A stretch of DNA of 64,000 bases from Anaerobacillus isosaccharinicus. GTDB lineage: Bacteria > Bacillota > Bacilli > Bacillales > Anaerobacillaceae. Each line of letters starts with the position of its first letter. Within the stretch, counting starts at the first letter, position 1. Position numbers and translations under genes: made by a program. The notes under the pieces were generated by a model. It did no database searches and was not told the DNA's origin. It saw nothing but the letters and a program-made list of their open reading frames with translations. Shown one piece after another: positions 1 through 56,354 of the stretch. The stretch covers positions 2,532,164 to 2,596,163 of the forward strand of contig NZ_CP063356.1 in assembly GCF_001866075.3 (NCBI RefSeq). The letters run 5' to 3'.

Positions 1-18
1 TAATAAGGGGAAGGTAAA

Positions 19-555
19 ATGCGAAAAATATTAGCAGTAACTTTTCTTGTTTTCTTAGTGAGCTTAGTAGGCTGTGGATCAGAAGAAGACAAAAAAGAAG
101 TTGTCCTTGATGGGGGAAGCCAGTATAATCAGGCAAATTTTGATTTGGCGCTTTTAGATACAAACGGCAATGTACAAACGATTACTCCAGACGGAAAAAC
201 AATTTATGCTTATTTTACAGGGATTGGCTGACAAATTTGCATTACTCAGCTAGTTGAGCTGAACAATAATATTGATAAATTTCCTGGTGTTAAGATATAC
301 GCAATTAGCTTGTCTTCTCCAGATGAGCACAGCCAATTACAAGAAGCATATAAGCAACAGTTAGAACACTTTGAATTTTTTACTGACTACCAAGGTGAAT
401 TTGGTGAACGGTTTGGTTTTATTGATTTAGAGGCAAACAAAGTTTATCGCGGATATGTAGGTGTAAATCCAGCCACAACAAATATGGTCATTGAAATTGA
501 TTATCTAATTGGTGACAATCTTAAAAAAGTGATAAAGGTAATGGAAGAATTGTAA
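19..555 (+). CDS. Thioredoxin-fold lipoprotein with in-frame TGA; candidate selenoprotein
   Basis: The N-terminus is a lipoprotein signal with lipobox LVGC at Cys19. The rest reads as a redoxin/SCO-like fold, beta-strand YAYFTGIG then the redox site then TQLVELN. At 229-231 the frame meets TGA and continues open in the same frame to 553-555 with no other defect. The residues around it are GIG-(TGA)-QIC, so the stop replaces the first residue of a CxxC-type motif. A 6-bp stem TCAGCT/AGCTGA with a 5-nt loop lies at 246-262, about 20 nt after the TGA, where a bacterial SECIS would sit. Selenocysteine insertion is inference; a nonsense mutation in a lipoprotein gene is the alternative. The start follows AAGGGGAAGG. 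Confidence 0.65.
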
Positions 556-559
556 AGAA

Positions 560-602
560 AAATCTCTTCAGGCTATCTAAGTAGCCTTGAAGAGATTTTT
601 TA
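560..602 (+). terminator. Rho-independent terminator after the redoxin lipoprotein
   Basis: A long stem, AATCTCTTCA paired with TTGAAGAGATT and an inner GGCTA/TAGCC stem, ends in a T-run. It lies directly after the stop at 555. Confidence 0.85.
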
Positions 603-716
603 TTTTTATAAAAAAACTTAAAATATCAGCAAACGTCTAATCACATTAAGTAAGAACTGAATATAGTGATCTTAAGTGGTGGATACCACAATAAATAAAA
701 AGGAGTGTATGTAAAC

Positions 717-1326: not shown

Positions 1327-1527
1327 ATGTTAACAAACGTTGGTATTCCAGGTTTAATTTTAATTTTAGTTATTGCTCTAATTATTTTTGGTCCAAAAAG
1401 GTTACCAGAAATGGGAAGAGCAATTGGTCAAACTTTGAAGGAATTTAAAAAGTCAACTCGCCAACTAACAGAAGGCGATGATGACAAACCACTAGAAAAA
1501 ACGCAAGAGGCAAGTAACAATCTTTAA
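1327..1527 (+). CDS. tatA: Twin-arginine translocase subunit TatA
   Basis: The 66-residue protein has one N-terminal membrane helix (about residues 5-20), the [14 protein letters not shown] hinge and an amphipathic helix with a charged tail. These are diagnostic of the pore-forming TatA/E subunits that move folded proteins across the membrane. Immediately downstream is a membrane anchor, then a molybdoenzyme with a twin-arginine signal, so this TatA is probably dedicated to exporting that enzyme. No tatC is present nearby, so a TatC encoded elsewhere would be needed. AAGGAGGAG sets the start. Confidence 0.93.
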
Positions 1528-1547: not shown

Positions 1548-2465
1548 ATGATCGGAAGTGCAATTTGGGATATTCGAGTATCCATTGACTTGTTTTTAGG
1601 TGGTATTGGTATCGCCCTATTTTTATTCTCAGTAATTTTAAGCTTCTACAACCCAGCTCGTTATGAGAAATTAATCAAAATTTCAGCATACCTTGCACCA
1701 ATAACAGCTGGAGTTGGATTATTCACTCTAGTAACTGAGTTGGGAAAACCATTCAGAATGGTGATCACTTATTTTTATGTAAACCCTCAATCAGTAACAT
1801 CATGGGGTGGATTTATTCAAGGGGCGTTTTTAGCAGTATCAGCGATTTACGCAGTAATGCTATTTTTAAACAAAACTGTTTCTTCATTAAAGGTTGTACA
1901 ATTAATTGGGTCGTTCCTAGCAGTTGCTGTTGGTATGTACCATGGGTTACTTTTAACATCAATCAGTCTTCCACTTTGGGCAGACGGTTCTGTGGCTGTA
2001 TTATTCTTAGTATCCTCACTAGCAGGTGGTTCAGCTTTTGTGATGATGATGAGATCATTATCAACTGATGCAGGCGAAGTTTCACAAGGAATGAAGGAAG
2101 TTGCAGCAGCGACAGAAGGAGCAAAAGTATTTAATTTCAATGGAATTTTTTTCACTTTAATTACAGCACAGTTAGTAACGACGGTATTTTGGTTTATCGC
2201 GATGAACCGCGGGAGTCGTTATCAGCTTGAATCAATTCAAACAATGTTAGCAGATTATGGAGTGTTCTTCTGGGTATTAGCAGTTGCAATTGGAATTGTT
2301 GTTCCTTTCGCAATCTCGTTATTTCAGTTGATAACAGGATCAAGAAATACGATGTCAAAAGGATTATCAATGATTGTTTTTCTAGCAGTAATTGCGGGAA
2401 GTTTTGCTCTAAAGTATATCATCATTGAAGCAGGTCAAATTCAAGTTCCTATTCAATTACTATAA
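1548..2465 (+). CDS. NrfD/PsrC-like membrane anchor subunit of molybdoenzyme
   Basis: The 305-residue protein has about eight predicted membrane helices and begins MIGSAIWDIRVSIDLFLGGI, typical of the NrfD/PsrC/DmsC-type quinol-interacting anchors. In CISM respiratory enzymes this subunit takes electrons from menaquinol and passes them to the four-cluster ferredoxin subunit. It lies 20 nt after tatA behind AAAGGAGG and 27 nt before the catalytic gene. The order anchor-catalytic-FeS-chaperone matches the C-A-B-D layout I recall for arsenate respiratory operons of Firmicutes. No heme ligand pattern was assigned. Confidence 0.88.
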   Translation: MIGSAIWDIRVSIDLFLGGIGIALFLFSVILSFYNPARYEKLIKISAYLAPITAGVGLFTLVTELGKPFRMVITYFYVNPQSVTSWGGFIQGAFLAVSAIYAVMLFLNKTVSSLKVVQLIGSFLAVAVGMYHGLLLTSISLPLWADGSVAVLFLVSSLAGGSAFVMMMRSLSTDAGEVSQGMKEVAAATEGAKVFNFNGIFFTLITAQLVTTVFWFIAMNRGSRYQLESIQTMLADYGVFFWVLAVAIGIVVPFAISLFQLITGSRNTMSKGLSMIVFLAVIAGSFALKYIIIEAGQIQVPIQLL

Positions 2466-2492: not shown

Positions 2493-5036
2493 ATGGAATT
2501 AAATCGTCGAAATTTTATTAAATTATCAGCAGTAAGTGGTTTGTTTGCTGCAGGTGCTACACAAGCAAAGCCAGCACTTACAGCATTTACAGAAACTAAA
2601 GCTAGTGCAGCTACTAATACAGAAGGAGAATGGGTAGGTTCAACATGTCAAGGTTGTACAACATGGTGTCCTGTTCAGGTTTATGTTGTAAATGGTAGAG
2701 CCACTAAAGTTCGTGGTAACCCGAATGCAAAAGCAAATCATGGTGAAGTTTGTGTTCGTGCCCATCTATCACTACAACAGGTGTATGATCCTGACCGTGT
2801 AAAACAACCAATGAAGCGTACAAATCAAAATAAAGGTAAAGATCAAGATCCACAATTTGTTCCGATTACCTGGGAAGAAGCAATGGACACAATTGCAGAG
2901 AAAATCTTGGAACTTCGTAAAAATGGAGAATCTCATAAATTTTCAGTTTGGCGTGGGCGTTATACTGCGAACAACGAAATCTTATACGGAAGCTTAGCAA
3001 AAATGGTTGGTTCACCAAATAATATATCACACAGTTCAATTTGTGCAGAGGCGGAAAAGTTCGGTCCGTATTACACTGAAGCTTTATGGGGCTACCGTGA
3101 TTATGACCACGCAAATTGTCGTTATGAACTTTTATGGGGCGCGGATCCTATCTCATCCAATCGCCAAGTACCACATACGATTAATATTTGGGGTAACACA
3201 ATGGATCGGGCAACAATTGCTTGTATTGATCCACGTTTATCAGCAACCGCGGCGAAGGCAGATGAATGGTTACCTATTATTCCTGGGGAAGATGGTGCGT
3301 TAGCGACAGCAATTGCTCATGTACTGTTAACAGAAGGATTATGGTATAAGCCATTTGTTGGTGATTTTGTTGATGGCGTGAATAAGTTTGTAGCTGGTAG
3401 AACCGTTCGTGAAGAAGATTTTGAAGAAATTGAAGGCTATGGTGTAGTTAAATGGTGGAATTTAGCATTAAAAGATACAACACCTGAATGGGCAGCAGAA
3501 CGTTGTGGAATTCCAGTTGATCAAATTCTTCGGGTAGCTCGTGGTTTTGGGGAAGCGGCTCCACATGCAATATCATTCTTATCACCAGGCGCTAGTATGC
3601 AAATTCGAGGTGGTTATACAGCGATTGCTGTTCATGCTCTTAACGGACTTGTTGGTTCAGCAGATAATAAAGGTGGTACATTATCTTGGTCTAGTGTTCC
3701 GTCAAATGGAATGCCAAGCTTTGATGATTACCTTGATGATATTGCCAAAAAAGGAGCCAAAGAAAAACGTATTGACCAAGGTGGAACATTGAAATTCCCA
3801 GGTCTTAATAAAAAATCTGGTGGTTCAAAGTTTACTGCAAACATGGCGCAGGCAATGCTTGATGAGGATCCATATGACTTAAAAGTTGTTTTGAGCTACT
3901 GGAATAACTTTAACTTTAGTTGCCCTGATACAAATAAGTGGGATAAAGCCTTAGCAAAATTACCATTTTTAGTTCATATGACAGTAAATCCTGCTGAGAT
4001 GACACACTTTGCAGACATTGTATTACCAGTAACTCATCAATTGTATGAACGTTTAAGTCCTGTTAAGGGTTCCGGTGGTAATATGCATGCACACATGACA
4101 TTAACACAGCGTGTTATCGAACCATTATGGGATGTGAAGATTGATGAAACTGAAATACCGTTTATGTTAGCGGAAGCATTGGCAAAGAAAGGTTTTTCGA
4201 ACATTTATGATTATTATACAAAAGAATTCGTCGATCCAGAAACAGGTAAGCGTCCAACAACGCCAGAGGAATTTAATGAAATTGTAACTAAAATTTATAG
4301 TGAACCAGTTTGGAACCCATCTATTGAGAAGAAGGGTGACAACATCAATGGTTGGGAAGAATTTAAGAAGGTTGCTGTGTGGAATTCTGTACCTTATCAG
4401 TTCAAGAAGAAGTGGGGCGGAAACTGGGGCACTGATACAGGTAAGTTTGAATTCTACAGTGAAACGTTGAAGCGAGTTTTAGGTGAACATGCTGAGGCAA
4501 ATGATGCTTCAATAGACCAAGTCATGGAAGCGACATTAAACACAGCGCGTGGTGAGCTAGCATTTGTTGGTCACTATGAGCCAGCTTATCGTCATGGTGA
4601 GGAAACTGAATTTCCATTTATTTTCTCGGAGCATCGTTCTCGTTTAAACCGTGAAGCGCGTTCTGCGAATACTTCTTGGTATCAAGAATTTAAGAACGCT
4701 GACCCAGGTGATGTTGCATGGGATGATGTAGCGAAAATCAATCCAATTGATGCTGCAAAACTAGGAGTTAATGATGGCGACAAAGTAAAACTAACGTCAC
4801 CATATGGTGATATTACTGTAACTGCGAAACTTTGGGAAGGGACACGTCCTGGAGTAATCTCTAAATGTTATGGTCAAGGTCACTGGGCGTACGGAAGAAC
4901 AGCGTCATTGGATTTTGGAAAGAAAATTGCCCGCGGTGGTAACAACAATACTATTCTAGCGGATGCATATGAAGCGTTAAGTGGTAGTACTGCTCGTCAC
5001 GGTGGTACAACAAGAATAAAAGTCGAAAAAGTATAA
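2493..5036 (+). CDS. Tat-exported molybdopterin oxyanion reductase, ArrA-like catalytic subunit
   Basis: The 847-residue protein starts at an ATG 11 nt after GGAGG; an in-frame GTG at 2475 lies within the ribosome site. The Tat signal is NRRNFIKLSA. A [4Fe-4S] motif C52-x2-C55-x3-C59-x27-C87 precedes the molybdopterin domains. C184, in SSICAEAEKF, is the expected Mo ligand. R156, Y157, H180 and K189 keep the spacing of the arsenate-binding residues I recall from Shewanella ArrA (R165, Y166, H189, K198, C193). The motif QFVPITWEEAM fits ArrA. However, YYTEALWGY and ALKDTT differ from the usual ArrA forms. Arsenate, antimonate or selenate are all possible substrates; family assignment is firm, substrate is not. 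Confidence 0.88.
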   Translation: MELNRRNFIKLSAVSGLFAAGATQAKPALTAFTETKASAATNTEGEWVGSTCQGCTTWCPVQVYVVNGRATKVRGNPNAKANHGEVCVRAHLSLQQVYDPDRVKQPMKRTNQNKGKDQDPQFVPITWEEAMDTIAEKILELRKNGESHKFSVWRGRYTANNEILYGSLAKMVGSPNNISHSSICAEAEKFGPYYTEALWGYRDYDHANCRYELLWGADPISSNRQVPHTINIWGNTMDRATIACIDPRLSATAAKADEWLPIIPGEDGALATAIAHVLLTEGLWYKPFVGDFVDGVNKFVAGRTVREEDFEEIEGYGVVKWWNLALKDTTPEWAAERCGIPVDQILRVARGFGEAAPHAISFLSPGASMQIRGGYTAIAVHALNGLVGSADNKGGTLSWSSVPSNGMPSFDDYLDDIAKKGAKEKRIDQGGTLKFPGLNKKSGGSKFTANMAQAMLDEDPYDLKVVLSYWNNFNFSCPDTNKWDKALAKLPFLVHMTVNPAEMTHFADIVLPVTHQLYERLSPVKGSGGNMHAHMTLTQRVIEPLWDVKIDETEIPFMLAEALAKKGFSNIYDYYTKEFVDPETGKRPTTPEEFNEIVTKIYSEPVWNPSIEKKGDNINGWEEFKKVAVWNSVPYQFKKKWGGNWGTDTGKFEFYSETLKRVLGEHAEANDASIDQVMEATLNTARGELAFVGHYEPAYRHGEETEFPFIFSEHRSRLNREARSANTSWYQEFKNADPGDVAWDDVAKINPIDAAKLGVNDGDKVKLTSPYGDITVTAKLWEGTRPGVISKCYGQGHWAYGRTASLDFGKKIARGGNNNTILADAYEALSGSTARHGGTTRIKVEKV

Positions 5037-5060: not shown

Positions 5061-5753
5061 ATGGCAAAAAACTATGCAATGGTCATTGATTTACAAAAAT
5101 GTGTAGGGTGTGCAGCTTGTTCAGTTGCTTGTAAAAATGAAAATAATACAGATATAGGTAAAAATTGGTCTTCAGCAATCCAAAGAACGATTGGAACGTT
5201 CCCAAATGTTAAATATGAGTATATTCCAACCTTATGTAATCATTGTGAAAACGCTCCGTGTGCAAAAGCTTGTCCAACGCAAGCCATGTATAAAGATGAA
5301 AATGGATTAACGCTCCATAATACTGATAAATGTATTGGGTGTAAGAGTTGCATGCTTGCATGTCCGTATGGAGTTATATCAGCAAATAAGAGAGATCCAC
5401 ACGAATATTGGAAGCAAGAAGATGCATTCATTGGTGGGGGAATGACGGCAACACCAAAAGAAGTAACAGAAAGAACTGGTACTCCAATTCCTTATTACAA
5501 TGCCGACCGTGAAAAGACTTATGAGGGCATTCGTTATAAAGGGATTGTGGAAAAGTGCACTTTCTGTGATCATCGTCTAGCAGAGGGAGAGAAGCCATAT
5601 TGCTCTGTAGCTTGTCCAGCTAAATGTCGTTACGTTGGTGACTTAAATGACCCGACTGACGAAATAAATGAATTACTAGGTAAATATGCGGCTCGGCAGC
5701 TACAACCTGATAAAGGAACTAAGCCGAAAGTATTCTATATAAGAAGTTTCTAA
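5061..5753 (+). CDS. Four-[4Fe-4S] electron-transfer subunit (ArrB/PsrB-like)
   Basis: The 230-residue protein contains sixteen cysteines arranged as four ferredoxin motifs: CVGCAACSVAC, CNHCENAPCAKAC, CIGCKSCMLAC and the split CTFCDHR...CSVACPAKC. This is the standard beta subunit of CISM molybdoenzymes, which relays electrons from the membrane anchor to the catalytic subunit. It has no signal peptide and would be co-exported with the Tat-bearing partner. It lies 24 nt behind the catalytic gene with a GGAGGTG site. A terminator-like hairpin follows at 5789. Confidence 0.93.
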   Translation: MAKNYAMVIDLQKCVGCAACSVACKNENNTDIGKNWSSAIQRTIGTFPNVKYEYIPTLCNHCENAPCAKACPTQAMYKDENGLTLHNTDKCIGCKSCMLACPYGVISANKRDPHEYWKQEDAFIGGGMTATPKEVTERTGTPIPYYNADREKTYEGIRYKGIVEKCTFCDHRLAEGEKPYCSVACPAKCRYVGDLNDPTDEINELLGKYAARQLQPDKGTKPKVFYIRSF

Positions 5754-5848: not shown

Positions 5849-6475
5849 GTGGAAGCAACGAACTCATTAGAGCGTGTTCAACATAAAGCAAATACTTTTA
5901 AAGTACTATCAGTTCTTTACAAGCAACCAAGTGAAGATTTCCACTATTATTTAACCCATTTAAAAATAAGTATTAGTAATATTTATCCGCAACTACTAAA
6001 CGATGTAGAGAAATTAGAGTTTGAATTTCAAAAGTATGATACGAAATTAATTAACTTAGAGGTTGAGCACGCAAAGCTTTTTGTCGGTCCATTTGACGTA
6101 CTTTGTCCTCCTTATAGTAGTATTTATTTAAATGAAGGGCGTGCAGTTTTTGGTGAATCGACTCTAGAAGCAATTAATGCTTACAATGAGGCTGGAATTG
6201 AATTGTCAAAAGAATATAAAGAACTCCCTGATCATATTTCAACAGAACTGGAATTTATTTATTTTTTATATTTTTCTTATCATGATAATCCCCAATTTAA
6301 ATATTTGCAGCAAATTGAATCATTTATTGAAAGTCATTTAGGTAGATGGGTAGTTCCTTTTATCGCTAAAGTTGAAGAAAGAGCAGCTACCGATTTTTAC
6401 AAAGTACTATCAACTATATTAGCTCAAGTTATAGCTAAAGAAGCATTGGAATTGAAAGAGAGAATGAGTGATTAG
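5849..6475 (+). CDS. TorD-family molybdoenzyme maturation chaperone
   Basis: The 208-residue, mostly helical cytoplasmic protein carries the family pattern EHAKLFVGP...CPPYSSIYLNEGR followed by LPDHISTELEFIYFL. TorD/DmsD/NarJ-type chaperones bind the Tat signal of their molybdoenzyme and hold it for cofactor insertion. I chose the GTG at 5849, preceded by GAGGAGTGAGG. The longer frame from 5789 begins inside the terminator hairpin and has no ribosome site. It is the last gene before the insertion sequence, whose presumed end lies only 7 nt after the stop codon. Confidence 0.85.
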   Translation: MEATNSLERVQHKANTFKVLSVLYKQPSEDFHYYLTHLKISISNIYPQLLNDVEKLEFEFQKYDTKLINLEVEHAKLFVGPFDVLCPPYSSIYLNEGRAVFGESTLEAINAYNEAGIELSKEYKELPDHISTELEFIYFLYFSYHDNPQFKYLQQIESFIESHLGRWVVPFIAKVEERAATDFYKVLSTILAQVIAKEALELKERMSD

Positions 6476-6481
6476 TATTAG

Positions 6482-8313
6482 AATAGAGACTCGGAAATTA
6501 AATGATTAATTTGCGGTCTCCTGGAGTGTATCAGCTGGATTTAAGAAGGAAAAATGGAATTTTCAAAGCCATTTTCAAAAGAATGCATGACAAATAAACC
6601 ACATGTTGTGGATTTTTTGAAAATTGTTCTTTATGATGGGTTTATAAGGACAAAAGAGATTGAATAATTGGGTTCGCAGCCACAAAGTTATTCTTTTTTG
6701 CTTCCTTTATCCACGCATCGGCATGTTGGCACATGCCGATGATATATGTACGAATATTCCAATGCCGAGAACTTCGTCCTCTTGAATCTTCTAAACGATA
6801 ATCCACTTTTTGACGTTTGATACAACGCTCGACTCCAGTTCGTAAAGAATAGCGTTTTCGCCATTCCTTACTACCTCGCTTGACGCGAGGAAAAAGACGA
6901 GGATTATCCTTCGTCGCTGTATAAAATGTTCGACCATATTTTGAATCGGAACATGGATTTGGACATTCCCACTTCCCACAAACGGCTGGACAACGCCATT
7001 TGCGGCGGTAGGTTTTCTGATTTAGTCCCCAATGGATCATCTCTCGACCGATTGGGCAAATTGGAACCCCTTTAAGGTTTATATCCATTTGTTTGTGCTG
7101 AAATTGTTTAGAACGTCTTGGATTAAGGTCAATGATGGCTGAAACATCATAGTGTTCTAACATTTCATAGATAGGGGTTGCATCTAAGGCTGAATCTAAA
7201 ATGACTTCACCAATTTTCCAATCAGAATACCATTGTTGGAGTTCGCTAAATGCGCTTATAAACAAAACAGAATCGTGTTTACTGGCTCGGTAGAGCCTTG
7301 GATAAATAGGTAAGTCATAAGGACTATCAGAAGCAGATACCATGAAAAGACTTCTACCATAATAGTACTTTTCTCTAGAACTATCCCAACCATAATCAGC
7401 ATCAGGGTCTGAGAATTGACGCTTACATTGGCACTTCCAGTTCCCTTGTTTACGACATTCACAAAGAAACTTACCGTAAGGTTTACCACCGGTCAGAACT
7501 GGAGAACCATCACCTAGAATGCTTAGAGATTTTGTGTTTCCTAATAATCCTGCTTCTGCTGATTTATTGACAAACAAAGACTGAAAGATTATTTGAAGCT
7601 GATCATGAGCCTTCGGTATATAGTTTTGATGTTTATTTTTCAAAGTGCGTTTAACTAGCTTTTCTACAATCTTTGGGTTTTTAGGATCTAGTTTCTGATT
7701 CTTTTTTCCTTTCTTTCGAGGTTTTGCTAACTTTCTTTTATTTCTTTTTGATAAATGTGGAGTTGAAGCAAGCCATAGACGATTGAAAAAGTCGTAAAAC
7801 GTTCCGACTCCAGGAACGTTGCTTGGAGAAAATCCACTAAGGACAGCATAAATCGGTGTTGTTTTTAAATGGTAAACCCATTGATCAACACTCGTTACAT
7901 TGTGATAATGCATTAGCATTAAACTTCTCAACATATCACAAGGATTACGCGGTTTTCTTCCTCTTGGATTAGAGGAATAACGGTGTCTAAGCAACATGGC
8001 GGCATCGGTTAGGTCAATCAAGGAACACCAAATTATTGGTCTAGAGTAAAAGGTTTTTAAAAATGTTTTATCCTTATAGAGTTCTTCTAATTGCTCAACA
8101 ACAAAAGACAGATAGGATTCATGAGAACGGACGTTTTTTAGCATAAAAATTCCCCCAATACGAGTTTTTTAATGTCTTCAACTCGATTGTTGGGGCGATC
8201 TGAATTTGTCAAGAGGAAAATTTGTTCGTACCCTTTAATTAGGGGTGAAACAATAAAAAGCCCAAGTCGAAAGACTAGAGCTGAAGCGGAAATTTAATTT
8301 CCGAGAGACTATT
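6482..8313. mobile_element. Insertion sequence (about 1.8 kb) with 22-bp terminal inverted repeats
   Basis: A perfect 14-bp inverted repeat, CTCGGAAATTAAAT at 6490-6503 and its complement at 8292-8305, brackets the transposase gene. It extends to 22 bp (6482-6503 and 8292-8313) with a 3-nt mismatch block. TAG flanks both outer ends and may be a short target duplication. The element lies between the torD-like gene and the ferredoxin gene of the respiratory island. End positions are my inference; copies elsewhere in the genome would confirm them. Confidence 0.55.
6642..8144 (-). CDS. DDE-type IS transposase (500 aa)
   Basis: The protein begins with a helical DNA-binding region containing RGRKPRNPCDMLRSLMLMHY, as in DUF772-type transposases. 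A basic Lys/Arg stretch follows, then a catalytic-domain pattern: LSILGDGSPV (first Asp), VILDSALDATPIYEML (second Asp) and SLRTGVERCIKRQKVDYRL (Glu). A cysteine-rich insertion (CECRKQ...CQCKRQ and CPAVCGKWECPNPC) looks like zinc binding. The frame is full length and uninterrupted, so the element may be active. I could not name the IS family with confidence; IS4/IS5/IS1182-like DDE_Tnp_1 is the best guess. Confidence 0.88.
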   Translation of the reverse strand: MLKNVRSHESYLSFVVEQLEELYKDKTFLKTFYSRPIIWCSLIDLTDAAMLLRHRYSSNPRGRKPRNPCDMLRSLMLMHYHNVTSVDQWVYHLKTTPIYAVLSGFSPSNVPGVGTFYDFFNRLWLASTPHLSKRNKRKLAKPRKKGKKNQKLDPKNPKIVEKLVKRTLKNKHQNYIPKAHDQLQIIFQSLFVNKSAEAGLLGNTKSLSILGDGSPVLTGGKPYGKFLCECRKQGNWKCQCKRQFSDPDADYGWDSSREKYYYGRSLFMVSASDSPYDLPIYPRLYRASKHDSVLFISAFSELQQWYSDWKIGEVILDSALDATPIYEMLEHYDVSAIIDLNPRRSKQFQHKQMDINLKGVPICPIGREMIHWGLNQKTYRRKWRCPAVCGKWECPNPCSDSKYGRTFYTATKDNPRLFPRVKRGSKEWRKRYSLRTGVERCIKRQKVDYRLEDSRGRSSRHWNIRTYIIGMCQHADAWIKEAKKNNFVAANPIIQSLLSL

Positions 8314-56000: not shown

Positions 56001-56041
56001 GAAAAAATTAAAATAAAAAGTTTAAAATAATTTCACATGGG

Positions 56042-56047
56042 TATAAT
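56042..56047 (+). promoter_or_regulatory. -10 element of the cold-shock gene
   Basis: TATAAT is preceded by TTTCACATGGG; about 50 nt of untranslated leader follow. No clear -35 was assigned. Confidence 0.5.
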
Positions 56048-56105
56048 AACAGAGCAAGTAAATTTGCAATTTCATGTATTTGCTACATGCTAGGAGGAAA
56101 CAAAA

Positions 56106-56306
56106 ATGGAACATGGTAAAGTTAAATGGTTTAACAGTGAAAAAGGTTTTGGGTTCATTGAGCGTGATGGTGGGGATGACGTATTCGTTCACTTCTCAGC
56201 TATTCAAGGCGAGGGTTACAAATCATTAGATGAAGGTCAAGAAGTAACTTTTGACATCGAAAATGGTCAACGTGGTCCACAAGCGACTAACGTTCGTAAA
56301 GCATAA
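56106..56306 (+). CDS. Cold-shock protein (Csp family)
   Basis: The 66-residue OB-fold protein has both RNA-binding motifs, [10 protein letters not shown] and DVFVHFSAI. It acts as an RNA chaperone. CTAGGAGGAAAC precedes the ATG. A terminator follows. Confidence 0.97.
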
Positions 56307-56323
56307 AAATAGTGAACCAAGTG

Positions 56324-56354
56324 ACAGATCCTATTCATTTAGGGTCTGTTTTTT
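56324..56354 (+). terminator. Terminator of the cold-shock gene
   Basis: ACAGATCCT pairs with AGGGTCTGT and is followed by TTTTT. Confidence 0.8.

Follow-up and report, generated by a model that had tools for sequence, protein, structure and literature searches.

An in-frame TGA in a lipoprotein gene of Anaerobacillus isosaccharinicus is almost certainly read as selenocysteine in a peroxiredoxin-like family of Bacilli

The locus and its neighbourhood

The window, i.e. the whole stretch of 64,000 nucleotides of A. isosaccharinicus DNA that was analysed, begins with a gene on the forward strand (Table 1) whose translation is one frame, MRKILAVTFLVFLVSLVGC...FTGIG*QIC...MEEL*, with the TGA at 229-231 as its sole internal stop. 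This confirms the preliminary description, according to which both halves of the gene are intact, share one frame and are interrupted by this TGA only. The prediction that the product is a lipoprotein is supported by a signal peptide with a lipobox cysteine: the Cys19 column is invariant in all 49 family members compared and a simple lipobox pattern matched 47 of them, the remaining two (L064 and L076) being near misses by eye. The hairpin directly 3' of the gene is missing from the output of a simple terminator scan and was found by folding.

Table 1 Features of the selenolipoprotein locus and of the operon next to it, with positions in the window.
Feature	Position	Strand	Basis and remarks
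Likely ribosome-binding site, AAGGGGAAGG	5..14	+	By eye
Selenolipoprotein gene (predicted)	19..555	+	178 aa with Sec71; ATG at 19, TAA at 553-555; homologues and PF00578
Lipobox LVGC with predicted modified Cys19	64..75	+	Sequence; behind hydrophobic signal peptide; first 19 residues are the predicted lipoprotein signal
Probable Sec codon TGA (Sec71)	229..231	+	First position of the UxxC pair; conserved in homologues
Cys74	238..240	+	Second UxxC residue, at the peroxiredoxin peroxidatic position; alignment; invariant in 49 members
Candidate bSECIS hairpin	246..262	+	6-bp stem, loop AGUUG (position 2 is G, then U); within the QLVEL codons; comparison
Arg144	448..450	+	Aligned with the conserved peroxiredoxin Arg; invariant in 49 members; alignment
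Terminator-like hairpin and T-run	557..607	+	Fold of 557-601, -25.3 kcal/mol; directly 3' of the stop, ahead of the downstream operon
tatA	1327..1527	+	NF011430, 95.3 bits, cut-off 62; ahead of the neighbouring operon
NrfD-like membrane subunit	1548..2465	+	PF03916, 96.1 bits
ArrA-like molybdopterin subunit	2493..5036	+	NF041714, 1106 bits (from 2502), below cut-off 1600; ATG by eye
ArrB-like Fe-S subunit	5061..5753	+	NF041715, 319.5 bits, below cut-off 450
TorD/NarJ-type chaperone	5849..6475	+	PF02613, 93.6 bits

Since the scores of the ArrA- and ArrB-like subunits lie below the NCBIfam cut-offs, the assignment of arsenate as the substrate of the neighbouring operon is guesswork based on the nearest family. 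The vicinity of the gene to an oxyanion-respiration-like operon, as described before, was found again beyond the window: in four Anaerobacillus genomes, including that of the window, a close ArrA homologue (at least 68% identity) is encoded on the same strand as the gene, at a distance of 1.9 to 3.1 kb. In two Anaerobacillus genomes, the gene has no close ArrA homologue next to it; the closest ArrA relative in G005 has 45% identity and lies about 234 kb from the gene, and no ArrA was detected in G002 at E 1e-100. In G004, where the gene was not found, the distance of ArrA to the end of its contig is 1.6 kb. As a terminator-like hairpin follows the stop codon in the window, co-transcription with the arr-like operon is not implied. 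At three other Anaerobacillus loci, the sole NrfD match is weak (25-29% identity) and is situated beyond the chaperone gene. Elsewhere in the window, a 500-aa open frame (6642-8144, minus strand), transposase-like by eye, directly follows the arr-like operon, and 56026-56353 (plus strand) matches the cspA thermoregulator of Rfam with 78.6 bits at a gathering score of 78.

A different neighbourhood was seen at 12 of the 49 loci, from four families, where the gene is preceded by ctaG and sco in the same orientation, with a gene for a YtkA-like lipoprotein between sco and the selenoprotein gene at two of the 12. At the other 37 loci, some of which had flanks of 1.5 kb only, ctaG-sco was not seen, and a respiratory role of the product thus rests on clade-specific neighbourhoods. 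Downstream of the gene, a cupredoxin lipoprotein gene was found at 2/49 loci and at 5 of 72 loci from a pattern scan; these two sets overlap in part, so that the 121 pooled loci are not separate genomes.

Selenocysteine machinery and conservation of the TGA codon

The host genome is a single contig of 5.23 Mb and codes for SelB (357 bits), SelA (554 bits) and SelD (402 bits), and its tRNA-Sec was found by both ARAGORN and Rfam. All four components (selA, selB, selC and selD) are therefore present, and the absence of the machinery, named in the preliminary description as an argument against selenocysteine, does not apply. The SelD gene of this genome (L008, 14664-15713, minus strand) has an in-frame TGA of its own in the motif GGUGCK; other SelDs also contain Sec. 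Beside selA, we noticed a gene for a small SelW/Rdx-like protein (L008, 15761-16057, plus strand) with a CxxU motif (FCMQUNYAPK) and a hairpin 3' of its TGA, whose product is probably another selenoprotein.

Within the genus, a match to the protein was obtained in six of seven genomes, each with one TGA at codon 71. In the order, the search returned 53 matches from 51 of 397 genomes, and exactly one TGA was present in 52 of them. Fifty of the 53 matches were read, the other three being the second match of G242, one match of G365 and one of G025, of which that of G025 (L091) was read separately. The TGA stands at codon 71 in 49 of the 50, where Cys is the third residue after it and a similar hairpin follows at constant distance; the order match lacking a TGA (L084 in G126) was rejected as a BCP-like peroxiredoxin without signal peptide from a genome without selA match. 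Among the 397 sampled order genomes, selA was found in 181, including all 50 with a TGA-bearing match (count by eye); this co-occurrence gives a Fisher p of about 1e-19, in which shared ancestry is ignored. The expectation that an exported selenolipoprotein would be unusual in Bacilli was not borne out by these counts. In one genome (G554, estimated contamination 7%), two selA genes scored above the cut-off.

The columns that are invariant among the 49 members include Cys19, Thr67, Sec71, Cys74, Q77-L78-V79, L81 and Arg144. For the segment past the TGA, dN/dS was computed for two pairs and came to 0.08 and 0.05, at a dS close to saturation; these values point to strong purifying selection downstream of the TGA. 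A scan of genome contigs with the single protein as query found no relative. A pattern scan of the contigs, in which TGA, TGC or TGT was allowed, gave at least 120 stretches, and 117 of the 120 listed carry TGA; ten of these 117 belong to a separate family (motif RTxxWUxxC), and the three stretches with TGC or TGT (L120, L174 and L228) look unrelated and were discarded. As judged from these comparisons, the apparent stop at 229-231 is almost certainly read as selenocysteine.

The hairpin downstream of the TGA

The stem of the candidate bSECIS is formed by 246-251 and 257-262 around a loop at 252-256 (TCAGCT-AGTTG-AGCTGA), and the distance from the UGA to the loop is 20 nt. Its minimum free energy (MFE) was -7.4 kcal/mol for 229-268 and -7.8 kcal/mol for 226-275, single-sequence fold z-scores were -0.34 (50-nt window), -1.20 (40-nt window) and -2.32 (240-268), and upon folding of 220-290 a competing structure beats the hairpin. 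Judged by energy alone the hairpin is unremarkable, and so the case for a bSECIS rests on comparison. In 44 distinct homologous sequences, the stem positions are paired in 97.7% of cells at the same distance from the TGA, and this value drops to at most 39.4% if the partner is slid by 1-3 columns. Two-sided changes were found at two pairs, in 25 cells altogether; none of 500 shuffles reached 25, although the shuffles ignore relatedness and 0/500 is therefore no probability. The loop GU is invariant in these 44 sequences, which stem from the protein search.

Covariation was also seen between two synonymous positions, base 3 of the Gln77 codon and base 1 of the Leu81 codon, with 32 G-C, 10 A-U, two G-U and no A-C combinations (n=44) and, after addition of sequences from the pattern scan, which leaves both positions free, 52 G-C, 31 A-U, five G-U and no A-C (n=88). 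For the fourth residue of QLV(E/Q)L, all 49 members use GAG or CAG, compared to 244 GAG among 879 Glu codons elsewhere in these genes, a background test that counts sequences as independent. According to the accessible part of a published bSECIS model (PMC13188914), the loop comprises 3-9 nt and the upper stem 4-16 bp, a G lies within the first two loop positions and is usually followed by G or U, the loop lies 16-37 nt from the UGA and the MFE is at most -7.5 kcal/mol. Within that part of the model, the loop (5 nt), stem (6 bp), loop G and spacing (20 nt) of 246-262 fall inside the limits, and the energy is borderline, with the value for 229-268 just above and that for 226-275 just below the limit. 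The stem and G-containing loop that had been proposed at SECIS distance thus stood up to the comparison.

A cysteine homologue

A search of the class with a profile gave matches in 362 of 398 genomes. Among the matches listed, nine reached at least 160 bits, all of them with one TGA, and the next scored 68 bits. Eight of the lower listed matches without TGA were read: seven are BCP- or AhpC-like and one (L098) is a lipoprotein with CSAC at the UxxC site. A further candidate, L109, was discarded because it is an AhpC whose TGA is located in a leader and not at the redox site. The genome of L098 (G477, 98% complete) has no selA match at E 1e-20, and the DNA of L098 lacks both the hairpin consensus and the GU loop. 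A three-member group of L098 and two Sec members from selA genomes aligned with the family over most of its length (hhalign E 8e-26), and in a tree with three RTxxWUxxC redoxins as outgroup L098 is nested among Sec members with support of 0.90 and 0.96. This nesting suggests, as a single case, that Sec was changed to Cys in L098 and that the SECIS consensus was lost along with it. When further Cys homologues were sought in the family of G477, L098 alone was found, in one of three genomes. The one distant homologue without TGA hence carries Cys at this position, and neither Trp nor Arg, which had been named beforehand as residues that would speak against selenocysteine.

Fold and relation to known families

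The protein of the window matches PF00578 (AhpC-TSA) with 33.3 bits at a cut-off of 26, all 49 members match this profile at E 0.001 or better, and a structure model searched against the PDB gave PrxQ/BCP and other peroxidases as best matches. The predicted fold is peroxiredoxin-like (AhpC-TSA, PrxQ/BCP), so that of the thioredoxin-fold lipoprotein proposed at the outset the lipoprotein, with its invariant Cys19, stood, whereas a plain thioredoxin fold did not. The typical peroxiredoxin motif is PxxxTxxC, as is also visible in the aligned BCP row, and the conserved Arg of peroxiredoxins has an active-site role. In alignment and model, the motif is replaced by TxxxUxxC, with Thr67 for Pro, Sec71 for Thr and Cys74 at the peroxidatic position; the family thus has the fold and the conserved Arg of typical peroxiredoxins without PxxxTxxC, and differs from PrxQ/BCP by TxxxUxxC and the predicted lipid anchor.

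In the accessible parts of two reviews (PMC9312934, PMC13188914), selenoprotein families are named by domain plus motif, and Prx-like thiol:disulfide oxidoreductase selenoproteins with PF00578 and UxxC or UxxU, for example WP_010940744.1, are described. PF00578 and UxxC (here U71-Q-I-C74) are common to both, and the family falls under this domain-plus-motif definition as given in those parts. Likened to the Prx-like UxxC selenoproteins by these partial descriptions only, it differs in being a lipoprotein, in its occurrence in Bacilli only among the sampled genomes and in having Sec nearly throughout.

Likeness to other families is weak: three members of the main family scored 28 to 32 bits with the SelL-related model NF040769 (cut-off 120) and one scored 23.7 bits with that of the TUGYCR (seleno)protein NF053656 (cut-off 100), and neither model was listed for the window protein at E 0.1 or better. 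The window protein and three scanned members from other clades stayed below the cut-offs of all NCBIfam models, and the other five genus members gave weak E-values, at best 2.9e-05. ResA is an exported CxxC thiol oxidoreductase that serves cytochrome assembly. The profile match to ResA and related proteins is marginal (E 0.02 in one of six genus members, and 20.9 bits at a cut-off of 170 for the distant L097).

The different family from the pattern scan, with the motif RTxxWUxxCKxQLVEL (L128, L143, L147, L176, L190 and L192, and the similar L223, L230, L233 and L234), shares UxxC and the same QLVEL hairpin codons. These redoxins, which were aligned among themselves, are longer and have another N-terminus, and the simple lipobox pattern matched none of six that were examined for it. 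The six members with titles are from proteobacterial, acidobacterial and armatimonadete MAGs, and the two that were scanned lie below every NCBIfam cut-off listed.

Distribution of the family

In the searches of order, class and phylum, members were found only in Bacilli among the sampled genomes. At a threshold of E 1e-16, which is too strict for low-scoring members like L112, the phylum search gave matches in three of 398 genomes, i.e. that of the window, G089 and G1111; the match in G1111 turned out to be an AhpC when read. The genera among 80 titled loci of the pattern scan include Cytobacillus, Neobacillus, Mesobacillus, Fictibacillus, Halalkalibacter, Salibacterium, Alkalicoccus, Anaerobacillus and Ammoniphilus. 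A member is also present in Alkalihalophilus pseudofirmus OF4 (L179). We found no published account of a surface selenoprotein family of Bacilli, which may be listed in supplementary tables. As Cys versions are nearly absent, the family should be hard to find by methods that pair TGA with Cys, and many annotations probably show its genes in split or truncated form. Difficulty with families that have few Cys homologues is a weakness that deep-Sep names in itself, in the accessible part of that source (PMC12013277).

Discussion

The best explanation as a whole, to which we give a probability of roughly 90%, is a lipid-anchored selenoprotein of peroxiredoxin fold with a Sec71 read by means of a bSECIS and a presumed role as an oxidoreductase in respiratory assembly. 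The UGA at 229-231 would be read as Sec by SelB with Sec-tRNA, directed by the bSECIS hairpin 20 nt downstream, as the comparison of homologues suggests. The product would be anchored by its lipid outside the membrane, and Sec71 would pair with Cys74 at the peroxidatic position, as alignment and model indicate. The selenolate of Sec71 may then attack an extracytoplasmic disulfide or oxidised thiol, with a Sec71-Cys74 selenylsulfide as the likely intermediate, and could be re-reduced by a membrane thiol-reductant pathway. In this manner, the protein might keep cysteines reduced while exported respiratory enzymes, or the copper chaperones of these enzymes, are assembled. Putative clients are Sco/CuA of the caa3 oxidase where the gene belongs to the ctaG-sco clade and, possibly, the ArrA-type reductase of Anaerobacillus. 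We infer an extracytoplasmic selenol/thiol oxidoreductase that would serve respiratory enzymes.

The three explanations that dispense with selenocysteine differ in how far they fall behind. An assembly or sequencing error in the genome of the window has a negligible probability, since the same TGA is present in many separate genomes, with all six matches of the genus carrying it and 52 of the 53 in the order having one TGA. An ordinary nonsense mutation with a decaying C-terminal half would account for the frame stopping at 229-231 under table 11, where two ORFs are listed, but is very improbable in view of the TGA at the same codon in 49 of 50 homologues read, the dN/dS of 0.05-0.08 past it in two pairs, the hairpin covariation and the co-occurrence with selA. 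Slightly less remote, and still improbable, is a true stop that serves as a switch by regulated or near-cognate read-through, e.g. with Trp, and involves no Sec. In favour of such a switch, hairpins 3' of stops can raise read-through in general; against it stand the sole non-TGA homologue found, which has Cys in a genome without selA match, the presence of selA in all 50 genomes with a TGA-bearing match and the agreement of the hairpin with most of the bSECIS constraints in the accessible part of the published model.

A selenoprotein that acts as a peroxidase at the cell surface, with Cys74 or Sec71 reducing peroxides and the other residue resolving, is a serious alternative as to function, albeit one that we consider less likely. 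It would be in line with PF00578 in 49/49 members, with PrxQ/BCP and other peroxidases as top structural matches and with the alignment of Cys74 to the peroxidatic Cys and of Arg144 to the conserved peroxiredoxin Arg, so that both scaffold and Arg fit. The usual peroxide-binding motif is lost, however, by the replacement of Pro and Thr by Thr67 and Sec71, UxxC is the arrangement of thiol oxidoreductases, and the linked genes code for assembly factors (CtaG, Sco) and not for a thioredoxin or AhpF partner.

Thanks to its ctaG-sco and arrA neighbourhoods, the family offers a function that can be tested directly, and the distant Cys homologue L098, in a genome without selA match, is a good candidate for replacement of Sec by Cys with SECIS loss. 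We tentatively propose, as a doubtful generalisation, that the nearly Sec-only surface selenolipoproteins of Bacilli build or protect extracytoplasmic respiratory metalloenzymes, by Sco/CuA reduction in the ctaG-sco clade and on an arsenate-type reductase beside arrA. If true, selenium supply would be linked with how these bacteria choose and assemble terminal electron acceptors.
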